Shown here: piece after piece, positions 20,318 to 30,785 of the stretch
Layout: the number at the start of each line of letters is the position of its first letter
Numbering within the stretch: position 1 is the stretch's first letter
Assembly: GCA_013298895.1 (NCBI GenBank)
Contig: JAAFJM010000001.1
Span: forward strand, 62,001-126,000
Length of the DNA: 64,000 nucleotides
Direction: 5' to 3'
Origin: Bacteroidota bacterium
GTDB taxonomy: Bacteria; Bacteroidota; Bacteroidia; UKL13-3
The notes under the pieces: model-generated
The model's database searches: none
What the model was told of the DNA's origin: nothing
Seen by the model: the letters and a program-made list of their open reading frames with translations, nothing else
Made by a program: the position numbers and the translations under genes

Positions 20318-20319
20318 TT

Positions 20320-20369
20320 GTAGAGACGTTGCATGCAACGTCTTTACTTAATAATGTTGTACGCAACAT
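20320..20369. repeat. Two palindromic repeats after groEL
   Basis: A 28-bp near-perfect palindrome (20320-20347, centre GCATGC, one mismatch between arms) is followed by a second shorter inverted repeat (ATGTTG-TACG-CAACAT, 20354-20369). Both share the core pattern (A)CGTTG-N4-CAACG(T), so they look like two diverged copies of one REP-like element placed between the groEL stop and its terminator. Confidence 0.6.
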
Positions 20370-20380
20370 CCTTAATAACA

Positions 20381-20415
20381 AAACCCGAATCATCATTTTG
20401 ATGGTTCGGGTTTTT
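20381..20415 (+). terminator. Intrinsic terminator of groESL
   Basis: Arms 20381-20395 and 20399-20413 pair with one mismatch (AAACCCGAA...TTCGGGTTT) and are followed by TTTTTA on the plus strand. Confidence 0.85.
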
Positions 20416-20439
20416 ATTGGAAATTGGTAATATTGTTTT

Positions 20440-26858: not shown

Positions 26859-27461
26859 ATGGCTGATTCATTGAACATCAATAGAAAAGAACAAATAATA
26901 GATGCAGCTGCATTATTATTTAAACAAAAAGGTTATGCAAGCACTACCATGCGCGACTTGGCAACAGAGCTAGGTATAGAGGCAGCTAGTATTTATCACC
27001 ACATCAAATCAAAAGAAGAACTTTTAGAAGGTATTTGCTTTGATATGGCTAACAAATTTATTTCTAATGCAAAAGAGGTGAACGATATTTACTTTAATGC
27101 TGAAGAAAAACTCCGTTTGGCCATTAAATTACACGTAGAAACTATTACCGAAAACCAAAATCAATCAGCAGTATTTTTAAGTGAGTGGCGTAATTTAAGC
27201 GAACCTAAACTTACCTTATTTAAACAATTGCGCCAGCAATACGAAAACCAATTTACCATTATATTAATGGATGGCGAAAACGAAGATATTTTTGACCAAG
27301 TAGATAAAAAATTTGCGGTATTGAGCATTTTATCAACCATTAATTTTGTAAACGAATGGTATAAACCCGATGGCAAAATGAATGCAGCTGAAATAGCCGA
27401 AAAACTAAGTAATTTTATAATGGGCGGCTTAAGAAAACGTTTGGTAACGGATGTTTTATAG
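26859..27461 (+). CDS. TetR/AcrR family regulator of the phenylacetate operon
   Basis: A 200-residue repressor. The N-terminal helix-turn-helix domain (about 9-55) reads REQIIDAAALLFKQKGYAST, TMRDLATELGIEAASIYHHI and KSKEELLEGI, a classic TetR_N. The rest is a helical ligand domain (about 75-195). It is the first gene before paaA on the same strand (49-bp gap). A perfect palindrome precedes its start, so it very likely controls itself and the paa genes. By analogy with PaaR-type regulators the inducer may be phenylacetyl-CoA or a later CoA intermediate; this is inference. Confidence 0.88.
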   Translation: MADSLNINRKEQIIDAAALLFKQKGYASTTMRDLATELGIEAASIYHHIKSKEELLEGICFDMANKFISNAKEVNDIYFNAEEKLRLAIKLHVETITENQNQSAVFLSEWRNLSEPKLTLFKQLRQQYENQFTIILMDGENEDIFDQVDKKFAVLSILSTINFVNEWYKPDGKMNAAEIAEKLSNFIMGGLRKRLVTDVL

Positions 27462-27475
27462 GCTTTTGGCAAAAA

Positions 27476-27490
27476 CTATCAACTGACAAC
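27476..27490 (+). repeat. Dispersed 15-mer repeat (copy before paaA)
   Basis: CTATCAACTGACAAC, the exact inverted match of 18600-18614. It fills part of the 49-bp tetR-paaA gap. Confidence 0.5.
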
Positions 27491-27510
27491 AATTAACTAA
27501 CAATTAAAAT

Positions 27511-28500
27511 ATGTACGGAAATGCTTACATCGATCCTAATGAAAAAGCCAACGCAATGATTGCTGGCGAGGATCCAATTAAATTAGCTGAATTTGAAGCA
27601 CGCATAGCACGTGGCGAAAAAATTGAACCAAAAGACTGGATGCCTAAAGAGTACAGGAAACAGTTAATCAGGATGATTGAACAACATGGTCATTCAGAAA
27701 TTATTGGTGCTTTGCCTGAAGGTACTTGGATTACTCGAGCACCTGGTTTTAAACGTAAATTGGCATTAATGGCCAAAGTGCAAGATGAAGTTGGACACGC
27801 ACAATTATTATACAGTGCTGCTGAAACTTTAGGTAAAAGCCGCGAAGACATGATAAATGATTTGATTACTGGCAAATCAAAATATTCAAATGTATTTAAC
27901 TACCCTGCATACACTTGGGCCGATGCTTGTATTATAGCTTGGTTAATTGATGCAGGTGCAATTATTAACCAAGTAGCAAATGCTAAAGGCAGTTATGGCC
28001 CTTATTGCAGAGCATTAGATAGAATTTGTACTGAAGAAAGTTTCCATTTAAAATATGGTCATGATAACGTAGTTACATTAGCTACAGGAACTCCAACTCA
28101 GCGTAAAATGGTTCAAGAAGCATTAACCCGTTGGTGGCCACCAATTATGCATTTTTTTGGTCCAAGCGATAAAATATCGAGCCATACTGAAATATTAATG
28201 CGTTGGAAAGTAAAAATGGCAAGTAATGATGATATGCGCCAACAATTCTTAAACATGTATGTTCCAAAAATTTGGGATTTAGGTTTAGTAATTCCAGATG
28301 CTAACTTGAAGAAAAACGAAGAGACAGGCAAATGGGATTATACCGAACCAGATTGGGATGAATTTAAACGTGTAATTAACGGTGGCGGACCTTGCAATGC
28401 AGAGCGTTTAGCAGTGCGCAGAATGGCTGAAGAAAAAGGCCGTTGGGTACGTGCAGCCTTGTTAAGAAAAGACGAAAAATACGTTACACCGCTAGCATAG
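27511..28500 (+). CDS. paaA: 1,2-phenylacetyl-CoA epoxidase, catalytic subunit A
   Basis: A 329-residue di-iron oxygenase subunit that, with PaaC, PaaB and a reductase, turns phenylacetyl-CoA into the 1,2-epoxide using O2. The two ExxH iron motifs are present (DEVGHAQLL and [10 protein letters not shown]), with the family block [20 protein letters not shown]. It is the first structural gene of tetR-paaA-(S23)-paaB-paaC-paaD. paaE, which codes for the reductase, and paaG/Z/J/K are not in the window. Length and ends are normal. Confidence 0.96.
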
Positions 28501-28503
28501 GTA

Positions 28504-28550
28504 ATTATAAGATTGCAAAATTAAAAAAATTAAAAGATTAGAAATTGATT
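28504..28550 (+). repeat. Period-7/8 AT repeat, left flank of the S23 gene
   Basis: Units ATTATAAG, ATTGCAAA, ATTAAAAA, AATTAAAAG, ATTAGAA, ATTGATTC run head to tail between paaA and the S23-type gene. The array on the other side of that gene (28922-28955) is the same kind in opposite orientation. Confidence 0.6.
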
Positions 28551-28551
28551 C

Positions 28552-28923
28552 ATGAAAATTGAACGGTTTGAGGATTTGGATATTTGGAAAAAGTCAGTTG
28601 AACTTTATGTTGATATTTTTGCAGTAATCGAAAACAGTGGTTTAAAAAACGACTTTTCTGCAAAAGATCAATTGAAAAGGGCAACATTATCAATATCTAA
28701 TAACATTGCCGAAGGATTTGAATACGAAAATAATCTTCAATTTGTTAGGTTTCTTAGGTATTCAAAAGGTTCGGCTGGAGAAATCAGAAACATGGTTACA
28801 GTTTTTTTAATGACTGGGCAAATTAGTAAAGAACAACATGATAAATTAATTGAAAAAATTGTTGAAATATCTAAGAGCATAAAAGGTTTTATGAAATACT
28901 TAAGTAACACGAAAAAACAATAA
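28552..28923 (+). CDS. Four-helix bundle protein of the S23 intervening-sequence family
   Basis: A 123-residue protein with the family phrases FEDLDIWKKSVELYVDIF near the start, ISNNIAEGFEYEN and FLRYSKGSAGEIRNMVTVF. It should form a four-helix bundle. The family was first seen inside 23S rRNA intervening sequences and is common as scattered single genes in Bacteroidota; its role is not established. Here it splits the paa operon between paaA and paaB, where no such gene belongs, and is bounded by period-7/8 repeat arrays in opposite orientation. The frame is intact. It probably came in as a small mobile cassette. Confidence 0.88.
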   Translation: MKIERFEDLDIWKKSVELYVDIFAVIENSGLKNDFSAKDQLKRATLSISNNIAEGFEYENNLQFVRFLRYSKGSAGEIRNMVTVFLMTGQISKEQHDKLIEKIVEISKSIKGFMKYLSNTKKQ

Positions 28924-28955
28924 TCTTCAAATTTTGTAATCTTTCAAATTTTAAA
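28922..28955 (-). repeat. Period-7/8 AT repeat, right flank of the S23 gene
   Basis: Read on the minus strand it contains ATTTGAAAG, ATTACAAA, ATTTGAAG, ATTA, the same unit type as the left flank (28504-28550) but inverted. Together they form an inverted pair around the S23 gene. Confidence 0.6.
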
Positions 28956-28964
28956 AATAAAAAA

Positions 28965-29336
28965 ATGATAAACTCACTCGATCCTCGCATAAAGCGCGAG
29001 CAAATAAATGAAGATAATACCATTGCTCCATTAACCGAAATGGATCAATTTGAAACATACGAAGTGTTTCATCAAAAAAAACGTGGTGACCAACATGTAC
29101 ACGTTGGTATAGTGCATGCACCAAATGCTGAAATGGCATTACTTTTTGGAAAAGAACAGTTTGGCCGCAGAGGCTTAAGTGTAAATATTTGGGTAGTTAA
29201 AACCAGCAATGTTTTTGCTTCGGATTATGATGATGCTGACATTTTTGAAACAGTACCTGAAAAACAATATCGTGAAGCAGGTGGCTATAAAGTAATGGAC
29301 AAAATTAACAAGTACAAAAAGGAAAATAAAGCTTAA
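28965..29336 (+). CDS. paaB: 1,2-phenylacetyl-CoA epoxidase subunit B
   Basis: A 123-residue structural subunit that bridges PaaA-PaaC dimers. The family block FETYEVFHQKKRGDQHVHVG is followed by HAPNAEMALLFGKEQFGRRG and NIWVVKTSNV. The N-terminal extension (about 25 residues) and the short C-terminal extension make it slightly longer than the proteobacterial PaaB of about 95. It would normally follow paaA directly; here the S23-type gene stands between. Confidence 0.94.
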   Translation: MINSLDPRIKREQINEDNTIAPLTEMDQFETYEVFHQKKRGDQHVHVGIVHAPNAEMALLFGKEQFGRRGLSVNIWVVKTSNVFASDYDDADIFETVPEKQYREAGGYKVMDKINKYKKENKA

Positions 29337-29345
29337 TAATTGAAA

Positions 29346-29449
29346 ATTACAAGATTATAAGATTACAAAATTACAAAATTGAATATGTTATTGATAACAA
29401 CTAAACAAATTAACTTTTAATTTTTCAATCTTTTTAACCTTGTAATAAA
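29346..29449. repeat. Inverted pair of period-8 AT arrays between paaB and paaC
   Basis: A forward array of four 8-mers (ATTACAAG, ATTATAAG, ATTACAAA, ATTACAAA; 29346-29377) is followed after about 40 bp by an inverted array (29414-29449; minus strand ATTACAAG, GTTAAAAAG, ATTGAAAA). The form equals the two flanks of the S23 gene without a gene between them. Confidence 0.6.
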
Positions 29450-29457
29450 AAAAGTAT

Positions 29458-30207
29458 ATGGAACACATCAAAGAATTATTATATAAAATGGCCGATGACT
29501 TGTTAGTTATTGGACATAGAAACAGCGAGTGGACGGGCTTAGGACCAATATTAGAAGAAGATATTGCATTTTCATCAATGGCCCAAGACAAAATTGGTCA
29601 TTCGCAAGCTTTGTTTCAAATATTACACCAACTTGGCGAACCTGAACCTGATACGAACGCATTTATGCGCGAAGCAAAACAGTTTCACAACGCACAGTTT
29701 TTAGAGTTACAAAACGATGATTACGATTTTTCAACTATCCGTCACTTTTTGTTTGACCACGCTGACCAATTGCGTTTTGACAACTTAGCAAACAGTAGTT
29801 ACGAACCTTTGGCAAAGGTAGCTCGCAAAATAAAAGGTGAGTTAAAGTACCATGTCTTTCATGCTGATATTTGGTTAAACAAATTGGGAAATGGAAATGA
29901 GGAAAGCCACGCACGTATGCAAACTGCATTAAACAATGCTTGGAACTACGCTTTAGGCATGTTCGAAAAAGGCGATTACGAAGAACAATTAATTGCTGAT
30001 ACAATATTTGAAGGTGAACAATCGTTACAAAACAGATGGTTAGCGGTAATTACTCCTATCATTGAAAAAGCCAATTTAAAAATTCCTGCGGAAAAAGATT
30101 GGGAACCAGTTTTAGGTGGACGAAAAGGTTATCATACCGAAAACTTAGATCAATTGGTAAATGAAATGAGCGAGGTTTTTAGAATAGAACCCGGAGTTGA
30201 ATGGTAA
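29458..30207 (+). CDS. paaC: 1,2-phenylacetyl-CoA epoxidase, structural subunit C
   Basis: A 249-residue helical partner of PaaA. It has the family start (LYKMADDLLVIGHRNSEWTG), the degenerate di-iron region (AQDKIGHSQALF, where PaaA has E-x-x-H) and GELKYHVFHADIWLNKLG. PaaC keeps the ferritin-like fold but not the metal site and helps bind the CoA substrate. Normal length. It is separated from paaB by an inverted repeat pair and from paaD by a perfect hairpin (30220-30268). Confidence 0.94.
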   Translation: MEHIKELLYKMADDLLVIGHRNSEWTGLGPILEEDIAFSSMAQDKIGHSQALFQILHQLGEPEPDTNAFMREAKQFHNAQFLELQNDDYDFSTIRHFLFDHADQLRFDNLANSSYEPLAKVARKIKGELKYHVFHADIWLNKLGNGNEESHARMQTALNNAWNYALGMFEKGDYEEQLIADTIFEGEQSLQNRWLAVITPIIEKANLKIPAEKDWEPVLGGRKGYHTENLDQLVNEMSEVFRIEPGVEW

Positions 30208-30219
30208 TATTTAGCGTTG

Positions 30220-30268
30220 TTAATAAGACTATCTTAAATAGCTACTCTCTTTAAGATAGTCTTATTAA
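30220..30268 (+). terminator. Perfect 19-bp hairpin between paaC and paaD
   Basis: Arms 30220-30238 and 30250-30268 are exactly complementary with an 11-nt loop. The tail (CATTAACCCC) has no T run, so it is not a textbook terminator. It may cut down read-through to paaD, protect the upstream mRNA, or bind a protein. Confidence 0.5.
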
Positions 30269-30299
30269 TCATTAACCCCTATAAATCAATATTTAAATT

Positions 30300-30785
30300 A
30301 TGATTACCGAAAAAGAAATTTGGTCAGCACTTGAAATAGTAAAAGACCCAGAAATTCCAACATTAAGTATGGTAGATATGGGAATAATTACCAAAGTAGA
30401 AGTAAGAGGCGAAAGCAATGTTTATGTTGAAATGACTCCAACTTTTACTGGTTGCCCAGCTATAAAAATGATGGAAAATATGGTGGCAGATAGGCTTAAA
30501 GAAATTGGCATTGAAACCATACAAGTTACCACCACTTTTGATAAACCTTGGAATAGCAATAAATTGACTGAACGCGGTTTGATGTGTTTAAAAAAACATG
30601 GCCTTGCTCCTCCTCCAAAACACGAAGGCGAAATAACCATGGAACTATTGGAACATAGTATTTGCCCTCATTGCGGCAGCAAAAATACAGATATGAAAAC
30701 TCCTTTCGGGCCAACGCTTTGTCGCAGTATGCATTACTGCAATGATTGCTTGCAAGCATTCGAACAATTTAAGCCAGTGGTTTAA
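30300..30785 (+). CDS. paaD: Phenylacetate degradation protein PaaD (DUF59 / zinc ribbon)
   Basis: A 161-residue protein with an N-terminal MIP18/DUF59 domain (DPEIPTLSMVDMGII; TPTFTGCPAIKMMEN) and a C-terminal zinc-ribbon-like cluster of Cys (CPHCGSKN, TLCRSMHYCNDC). PaaD helps mature the Fe-S or di-iron part of the epoxidase complex. It closes the operon in this window. Its stop shares TTAA (30782-30785) with the stop of the convergent outer-membrane gene. paaE does not follow. Confidence 0.94.
   Translation: MITEKEIWSALEIVKDPEIPTLSMVDMGIITKVEVRGESNVYVEMTPTFTGCPAIKMMENMVADRLKEIGIETIQVTTTFDKPWNSNKLTERGLMCLKKHGLAPPPKHEGEITMELLEHSICPHCGSKNTDMKTPFGPTLCRSMHYCNDCLQAFEQFKPVV

Follow-up and report, generated by a model that had tools for sequence, protein, structure and literature searches.

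In the window, by which we mean the whole 64,000-nucleotide stretch of DNA analysed here, a gene of the S23 or 23S rRNA intervening-sequence (IVS) protein family lies within the paa operon. The features of the locus are as follows:

27511-28500, forward strand: paaA, the host gene 5' of S23 (PF05138, 277 bits)
28502-28550, forward strand: left arm, a degenerate AT-rich period-7/8 array from the paaA stop to the S23 start, pairing with 28921-28959
28552-28923, forward strand: S23 / 23S rRNA intervening-sequence protein gene, intact, 123 aa (PF05635, TIGR02436)
28921-28959, forward strand: right arm, the repeat words of the left arm as reverse complement (read from the sequence)
28965-29336, forward strand: paaB, the host gene 3' of S23 (PF06243, 87.9 bits)
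29337-29457, forward strand: paaB-paaC gap with an ORF-less inverted array at about 29343-29383 and about 29402-29446 (inverted pairs)
29458-30207, forward strand: paaC, context (PF05138, 233 bits)

An earlier, sequence-only reading of this DNA had placed an S23-type gene between paaA and paaB, and profile searches bore this out. The product of 28552-28923 matched PF05635 with 97.3 bits (cut-off 33.8, E 7e-28) and TIGR02436, 'four helix bundle protein', with 89.7 bits (cut-off 24), and a sequence search retrieved the PDB relatives 2gsc (E 6e-9) and 2rld. The protein would be expected to form a four-helix bundle and, like XCC0516, a pentamer. An Rfam search of 27400-30300 gave no rRNA match, the S23 unit being flanked by paaA and paaB, and yielded one sub-threshold match to a known RNA family (mir-787, E 0.24), located outside the arms.

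The same reading had reported AT-rich arrays of period 7/8 in opposite orientation on the two sides of the gene. Over the 39 nt of these arms (28502-28540 and 28921-28959) the complementarity is 72%, and it rises to 93% in the best core (28509-28522 and 28930-28943). The start of the right arm overlaps the S23 stop codon, and its end lies just 5' of the paaB start. The RNA fold of 28490-28975 gave a z of -3.0, and none of 100 shuffles equalled the native sequence. Taken singly, the arm match at the window locus is modest to weak, with a score of 15 and a p of 0.036 when the 51- and 41-nt gaps were shuffled 20,000 times by mononucleotides; we regard it as beyond chance because other S23 genes are bordered in the same manner. 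The left arm is kept in two genus relatives, G006 and G009.

The array in the paaB-paaC gap, which that reading had passed over, uses the same repeat words as the S23 arms, and this gap (z 5.3) shows the strongest period 8 among the 28 intergenic regions of the window. By eye, ORF-less arrays were also found in the paaB-paaC gap of G001, G002, G004, G006, G008 and G009; in G002 the array is present though the paaA-paaB junction is empty. Other short palindromes occur in the window and in its relatives. The paaC-paaD gap (30208-30299) contains a near-perfect short hairpin (z 6.1) that is not of the heptad type, and 20318-20439 contains two hairpins, one of which is made of GTAGAGACGT-type palindromes; a palindrome resembling this type was also seen in the paaA-paaB gap of locus L027. 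A small CCCGATNNATCGGG-type palindrome is nested in several genus arrays, namely at paaB-paaC (L016, L017, L019), serA (L195) and nrd (L111).

The occurrence and surroundings of S23 genes were determined in several genome sets. PF05635 had 11 matches in the window's own genome (G000), at least 4 in each of ten genus genomes (76 rows altogether) and at least one in 90 of the 118 genomes of a phylum sample. The 76 genus rows were reduced to 71 loci by merging two rows of one broken gene and leaving out G000:C84, which runs into a contig end, and three places in G007; 70 of these loci had full flanks for arm scoring. From other named genomes the best 80 of 138 loci were kept, a set that is biased to relatives of the query and includes records of Patescibacteria, Chloroflexi, Desulfobacterota-type bacteria, Verrucomicrobia and Planctomycetes. 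The arm test used 75 of the 80, five same-site genus loci being omitted, and 72 after removal of three without flanks. The phylum sets of S23, GxxExxY and PIN genes comprise the 30 best matches each, with 29 for PIN, where one locus had no flanks. Gene neighbours were taken from a crude longest-ORF caller.

Arms were scored by local matching of the 150 nt on the upstream side of a gene to the reverse complement of the 150 nt on its downstream side. The median own-arm score of the 70 genus loci was 22, compared with 12 when arms of different loci were paired and 13 in 248 control ORFs, and the 95th percentile of cross pairs was exceeded by 44 of the 70 loci versus 11 of the 248 controls. With one representative per lineage, 21 of 26 genus loci lay above this percentile (p 4e-15); in the phylum sample, 16 of the 30 best matches lay above the cross-pair 95th percentile. 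The arms of a locus therefore match their own partner better than the arms of other loci, i.e., they are complementary in a locus-specific manner. In addition, arms are often direct copies of each other (21 of 70 genus loci above the direct-repeat 95th percentile). A z above 3 was reached by 52 of 70 genus loci, by 14 of 30 phylum loci and, in the set built from the best 80 of 138, by 52 of the 72 loci from other named genomes; among 114 control ORFs compared with this last set, 4 reached it. None of the 29 PIN-domain (toxin) genes, which served as a control for small sporadic genes, reached this value. A lack of such borders around S23 genes elsewhere had been named as refuting the cassette interpretation. 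Most loci do carry them; those that did not exceed a z of 3 numbered 18 of 70 in the genus, 16 of 30 in the phylum sample and 20 of 72 among the other genomes.

Besides their complementarity, the arms share a period. In each of the three S23 sets, the autocorrelation of the 80 nt next to the gene has maxima at lags of 7, 14 and 21. The mean lag-7 excess was 0.092, 0.075 and 0.105 in these sets, versus 0.000 in the 248 controls. The words themselves vary by locus, and the constant features are the period-7 layout and mutual complementarity. Examples of array words are ATTACAAG at the paa locus of the window, ACTCGTAATAACC at paa in G003 and, at metH, CTAGAAGCCAG in G000 and ATAGACCATGG in G006. 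Across junctions, arm words followed S23 identity with a Spearman coefficient of only 0.12 (calculated on non-independent pairs).

The view that paaA and paaB normally adjoin was upheld. An S23 gene is not fixed between them; its fixation there in distant relatives had been named as refuting the cassette interpretation. Both genes could be placed at 28 loci, of which 20 have no S23 gene in between and 8, the window's own included, have one. Within the genus, S23 is found at this junction in 7 of 9 genomes with paaB; G005 has an ORF-less array and G002 a gap of 3 nt. In the family relative G018 the two genes are 1 nt apart, so that the empty sites called for by the sequence-only reading do exist among relatives. 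Its description of a small cassette with inverted ends is likewise supported, the S23 gene and its arms being a bounded unit that is missing from the paaA-paaB junction of most relatives. Moreover, S23 of G003 is 47% identical to that of the window and has other arms, whereas PaaA and PaaB of the two genomes are 99.7 and 100% identical, respectively.

Similar gains, losses and swaps were observed in other housekeeping operons, S23 units recurring in pnt, suf, nrd, metH and paa. Four genomes have S23 at sufB-sufC (G003, G007, G008 and, in broken form, G006), and six have ORF-less arrays there with two different word sets; at the serA junction ORF-less arrays are found in five genomes. The metH junction is occupied by two S23 lineages that are about 30-41% identical (G000, G001 and G005 versus G002, G006 and G009) and, in G003, G004 and G007, by a different ORF, which matches GxxExxY in G003 and is assigned by sequence in G004 and G007. 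The por junction shows a 3-nt gap in G001, G004 and G008. At two loci of this junction, L160 (G009) and L172 (G003), two small ORFs that by eye resemble a VapBC pair stand where others have S23. Altogether, S23 lineages less than 62% identical to each other occur at 6 of the 15 junctions with several members, and the upstream proteins there are about 79-100% identical. The median arm similarity was 14 between different lineages at the same junction (48 pairs, three of which involve a broken copy, S70, of the same lineage), 13 between different junctions and 37 within the same lineage. As the arms of swapped lineages are as unlike as those of unrelated junctions, the gene is exchanged together with its arms.

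At genus S23 loci the stop codon of the upstream gene is often furnished by the array, and at metH the array furnishes its last codons and stop. TAG stops were found in 28 of 61 upstream neighbours of genus S23 loci versus 43 of 222 background ORFs, and by majority at 7 of 17 junctions. This is suggestive of insertion of the units at or within stop codons.

The median dN/dS of S23 was 0.11 (60 pairs), compared with 0.035 for the upstream genes. S23 is thus under purifying selection and its protein does something, although 10 of the 71 genus copies have no clean frame or start. The downstream neighbour lies on the S23 strand at 67 of 70 genus loci, and both neighbours do so at 60 of these loci, compared with 204 of 330 control ORFs; when each lineage was counted once, co-orientation was seen in 21 of 26 (p 0.059). 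Some of the exceptions, S00, S21 and S51, resemble spurious antisense ORFs over arrays.

Selection on a sense RNA stem predicts that mismatches of the G-U type outnumber those of the A-C type in the arms. No such excess was found in the genus (113:154), phylum (20:24) or other-genome set (112:112), nor were the sense arm duplexes stronger than the antisense duplexes. The complementarity may therefore arise and persist at the DNA level, and the absent strand signature counts against the idea that selection sees an RNA stem.

Synonymous divergence was compared between S23 and the upstream gene. The dS of S23 was the lower of the two in 31 of 48 comparable pairs (hand count), with striking differences for S29/S33 (0.00 versus 0.50) and S44/S45 (0.37 versus 1.18). 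Recent lateral spread of S23 is suggested for some pairs and is not proven in general. Since identity shows no sharp drop at the arms, the dS contrast is no proof that the unit alone is transferred.

Our best reading is that the unit is the counterpart, in a protein-coding operon, of the IVSs of 23S rRNA, a stem-bounded selfish unit that is exchanged between genomes. In this model, to which we give roughly even credence, an IVS-type element made up of an S23 gene within mirrored, degenerate 7-nt arrays sits in the operon. Gene and arms act as a single unit at permissive junctions of co-transcribed genes, where the unit is gained, disappears with or without leaving an ORF-less array behind, or gives way to an unrelated unit of the same layout. 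For the most part it would pass to the corresponding junction of another genome and only rarely to a new junction, and the probable means would be homologous recombination between the flanking genes or else an undiscovered homing step. We infer that the unit is transcribed with the operon and that its arms may pair, enclosing the S23 message in a long stem. This stem could be cut by host RNase III (PF14622), as happens in the IVSs of 23S rRNA; the enzyme was found in 9 of the 10 genus genomes, the tenth being 65% complete. The S23 protein might recognise the heptad-paired stem through its geometry and not its sequence.

A minority possibility that we take seriously is that the arms form a palindrome at the DNA level, a hairpin or cruciform kept complementary by template switching during replication, with S23 as a passenger or a binder of replication hairpins and with no role for RNA. 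The equal energies of sense and antisense stems and the missing G-U excess fit such a palindrome, as do the ORF-less arrays that persist at sufB-sufC (six genomes) and serA (five) and the words common to both arms, often as direct copies. However, neither the tie to one protein family, with no PIN locus above threshold, nor the co-orientation of the downstream gene is expected of a passenger, and the purifying selection on S23 likewise speaks against it. We consider it distinctly unlikely that the unit serves its host, with the arms as elements of mRNA stability or attenuation and S23 as a local stem-binding regulator of operon stoichiometry. While selection on S23 and the recurrence of the units in housekeeping operons would suit a regulator, the same junction is without a unit in many relatives (20 of 28 for paa), unrelated S23 lineages or a different ORF freely substitute, and no clean frame or start is seen in 10 of 71 copies.

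A cassette whose inverted ends are acted on by a transposase would account for inverted ends together with empty sites, and is improbable in view of how S23 lineages are distributed. Ordinary transposition was not seen, because in the ten genus genomes 18 of 19 multi-member lineages are confined to one junction (three lineages whose neighbours showed the same junction were merged in this count); this rules out the transposase model as the main reading. Apart from misses of the gene caller and one real exception, S23 pairs at different junctions are at most 55% identical. The exception, which favours a transposon, is a lineage at two neighbouring ABC-transporter junctions: S51 (G009) lies 3' of the first ABC permease gene, and its 80-81% identical relatives S52 (G002) and S53 (G008) lie 5' of that gene. 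Otherwise no near-identical copies at unrelated sites were found in the genus, and relatives of the window's S23 at 60% identity or more were located at paaA-paaB only (5 of the best 80 of 138 loci). The end sequences vary between loci, the S23 copies have no common terminal repeats as the arms of different junctions do not match, and by eye no constant target-site duplication was found between filled and empty junctions, where fast-changing arms obscure the exact ends. Genes for Y1 (REP-associated) transposases are present in all ten genus genomes (L349-L368), which would suit a transposase model, but they have their own REP-like palindromes alongside (9 of 20 genus loci with z above 3) without period 7 (lag-7 value -0.026), and a link of Y1/REP to S23 was rejected. 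Carriage on plasmids or phages was also rejected, as S23 relatives were found in only 15 of 72,556 plasmid and none of 50,697 phage records. Retrohoming by a reverse transcriptase supplied in trans, as with Avd in diversity-generating retroelements (DGRs), was considered in light of the homology of S23/IVP and Avd (PMC10053308, in the part available) and is highly improbable. No PF00078 reverse transcriptase was matched in 8 of the 10 genus genomes, among them that of the window with its 11 S23 matches, and on this PF00078 search such a mechanism was rejected for this genus. Taken together, the observation of the sequence-only reading is confirmed and its interpretation partly supported, in that mobility holds as gain, loss and swap at junctions and not as transposition.

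The IVS-like reading can be compared with several known systems, for which we refer to the accessible portions of the papers cited. In Coxiella, the 23S rRNA IVS has tandem heptamers (GACAGAT) just 5' of the S23 ORF and is excised by RNase III, and 23S rRNA IVSs are sporadic and thought to be laterally acquired (PMC4990558). As in the 23S rRNA IVSs of Coxiella and Leptospira, an S23-family ORF lies on the sense strand inside inverted ends, and complementary ends surround the insert, a likeness that is weak at the window locus alone. In contrast to these IVSs, the window unit sits at an mRNA operon junction and not in rRNA, there are many copies per genome (11 matches here), the arms change by lineage, and cleavage would be expected only by analogy. 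In CPR bacteria, ORFs for 23S_rRNA_IVP have likewise been reported within inserts of 16S and 23S rRNA (PMC11270868), 18 IVP genes have been noted in cas loci (PMC3936711), and PF05635 resembles the DGR accessory protein Avd (PMC10053308).

Stems and arrays of 7-nt words have been described in other settings. The P6b stem of the Nostoc tRNA-Leu intron is likewise built of 7-nt repeats of one of two sequence classes, which have switched repeatedly against phylogeny with the structure kept; unlike our units, it belongs to a group I intron and has two classes only, and the portion of the paper at hand mentions no S23 gene (PMC4476775). Intergenic 7-nt arrays comparable to ours are the TAACTGA repeats of Beggiatoaceae, cyanobacteria and some Bacteroidetes (PMC4679880) and the heptanucleotide elements of Geobacter metallireducens (PMC2700814), which differ in being mostly direct repeats of one motif. 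The accessible text of PMC4679880 contains none of the words S23, four helix and intervening, and that of PMC2700814 has neither S23 nor intervening sequence. Within the accessible open-access literature, heptamers beside an S23 ORF are mentioned only for the Coxiella IVS (subscription papers such as the original Leptospira IVS paper being outside this scope), and there is no mention of S23 genes outside rRNA in connection with heptad arrays, including in PMC5524665, PMC8700078, PMC3534657, PMC2672173 and PMC3936711. Orphan S23 genes and intergenic heptamer arrays, treated apart in these sources, are here tied together. As S23 occurs in many copies per genome in ordinary operons, with a common 7-nt layout and with naturally empty sites for comparison, what S23p does and how IVSs spread (PMC4990558, as far as accessible) become testable by transcripts and binding assays in harmless bacteria. 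We further propose, as somewhat less than evenly probable, that S23 genes with heptad arms are bacteria-wide selfish units in which S23 would read the spacing in any RNA or DNA stem of 7-nt words. The rRNA IVSs would then be a small visible part of these units, and the intergenic heptamer arrays of Bacteroidota, cyanobacteria and Deltaproteobacteria would be their ORF-less remains. The units would home repeatedly into the same junctions, with both arms changing words together.

Two further gene families share the layout without the heptads. GxxExxY (PDDEXK_3) genes, present in 60 of 118 phylum genomes, are also small ORFs within inverted arrays (z above 3 in 20 of 30 phylum loci, the best 30 matches) and take the metH junction in place of S23 (L193 in G003, L192 in G004, L178 in G007); unlike S23 units, they have CACAGAG-type words in most loci inspected, no period 7 and an unrelated protein family. 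In REP/RAYT systems, a protein gene for a Y1 transposase similarly lies between inverted repeats, and gene-less copies of REP palindromes also exist, but the palindromes are short, sequence-specific and without heptads. Since GxxExxY and Y1 genes are bounded by arrays or palindromes as well, a small gene within its own inverted repeats is a recurrent layout, and it is the period of 7 that marks S23.
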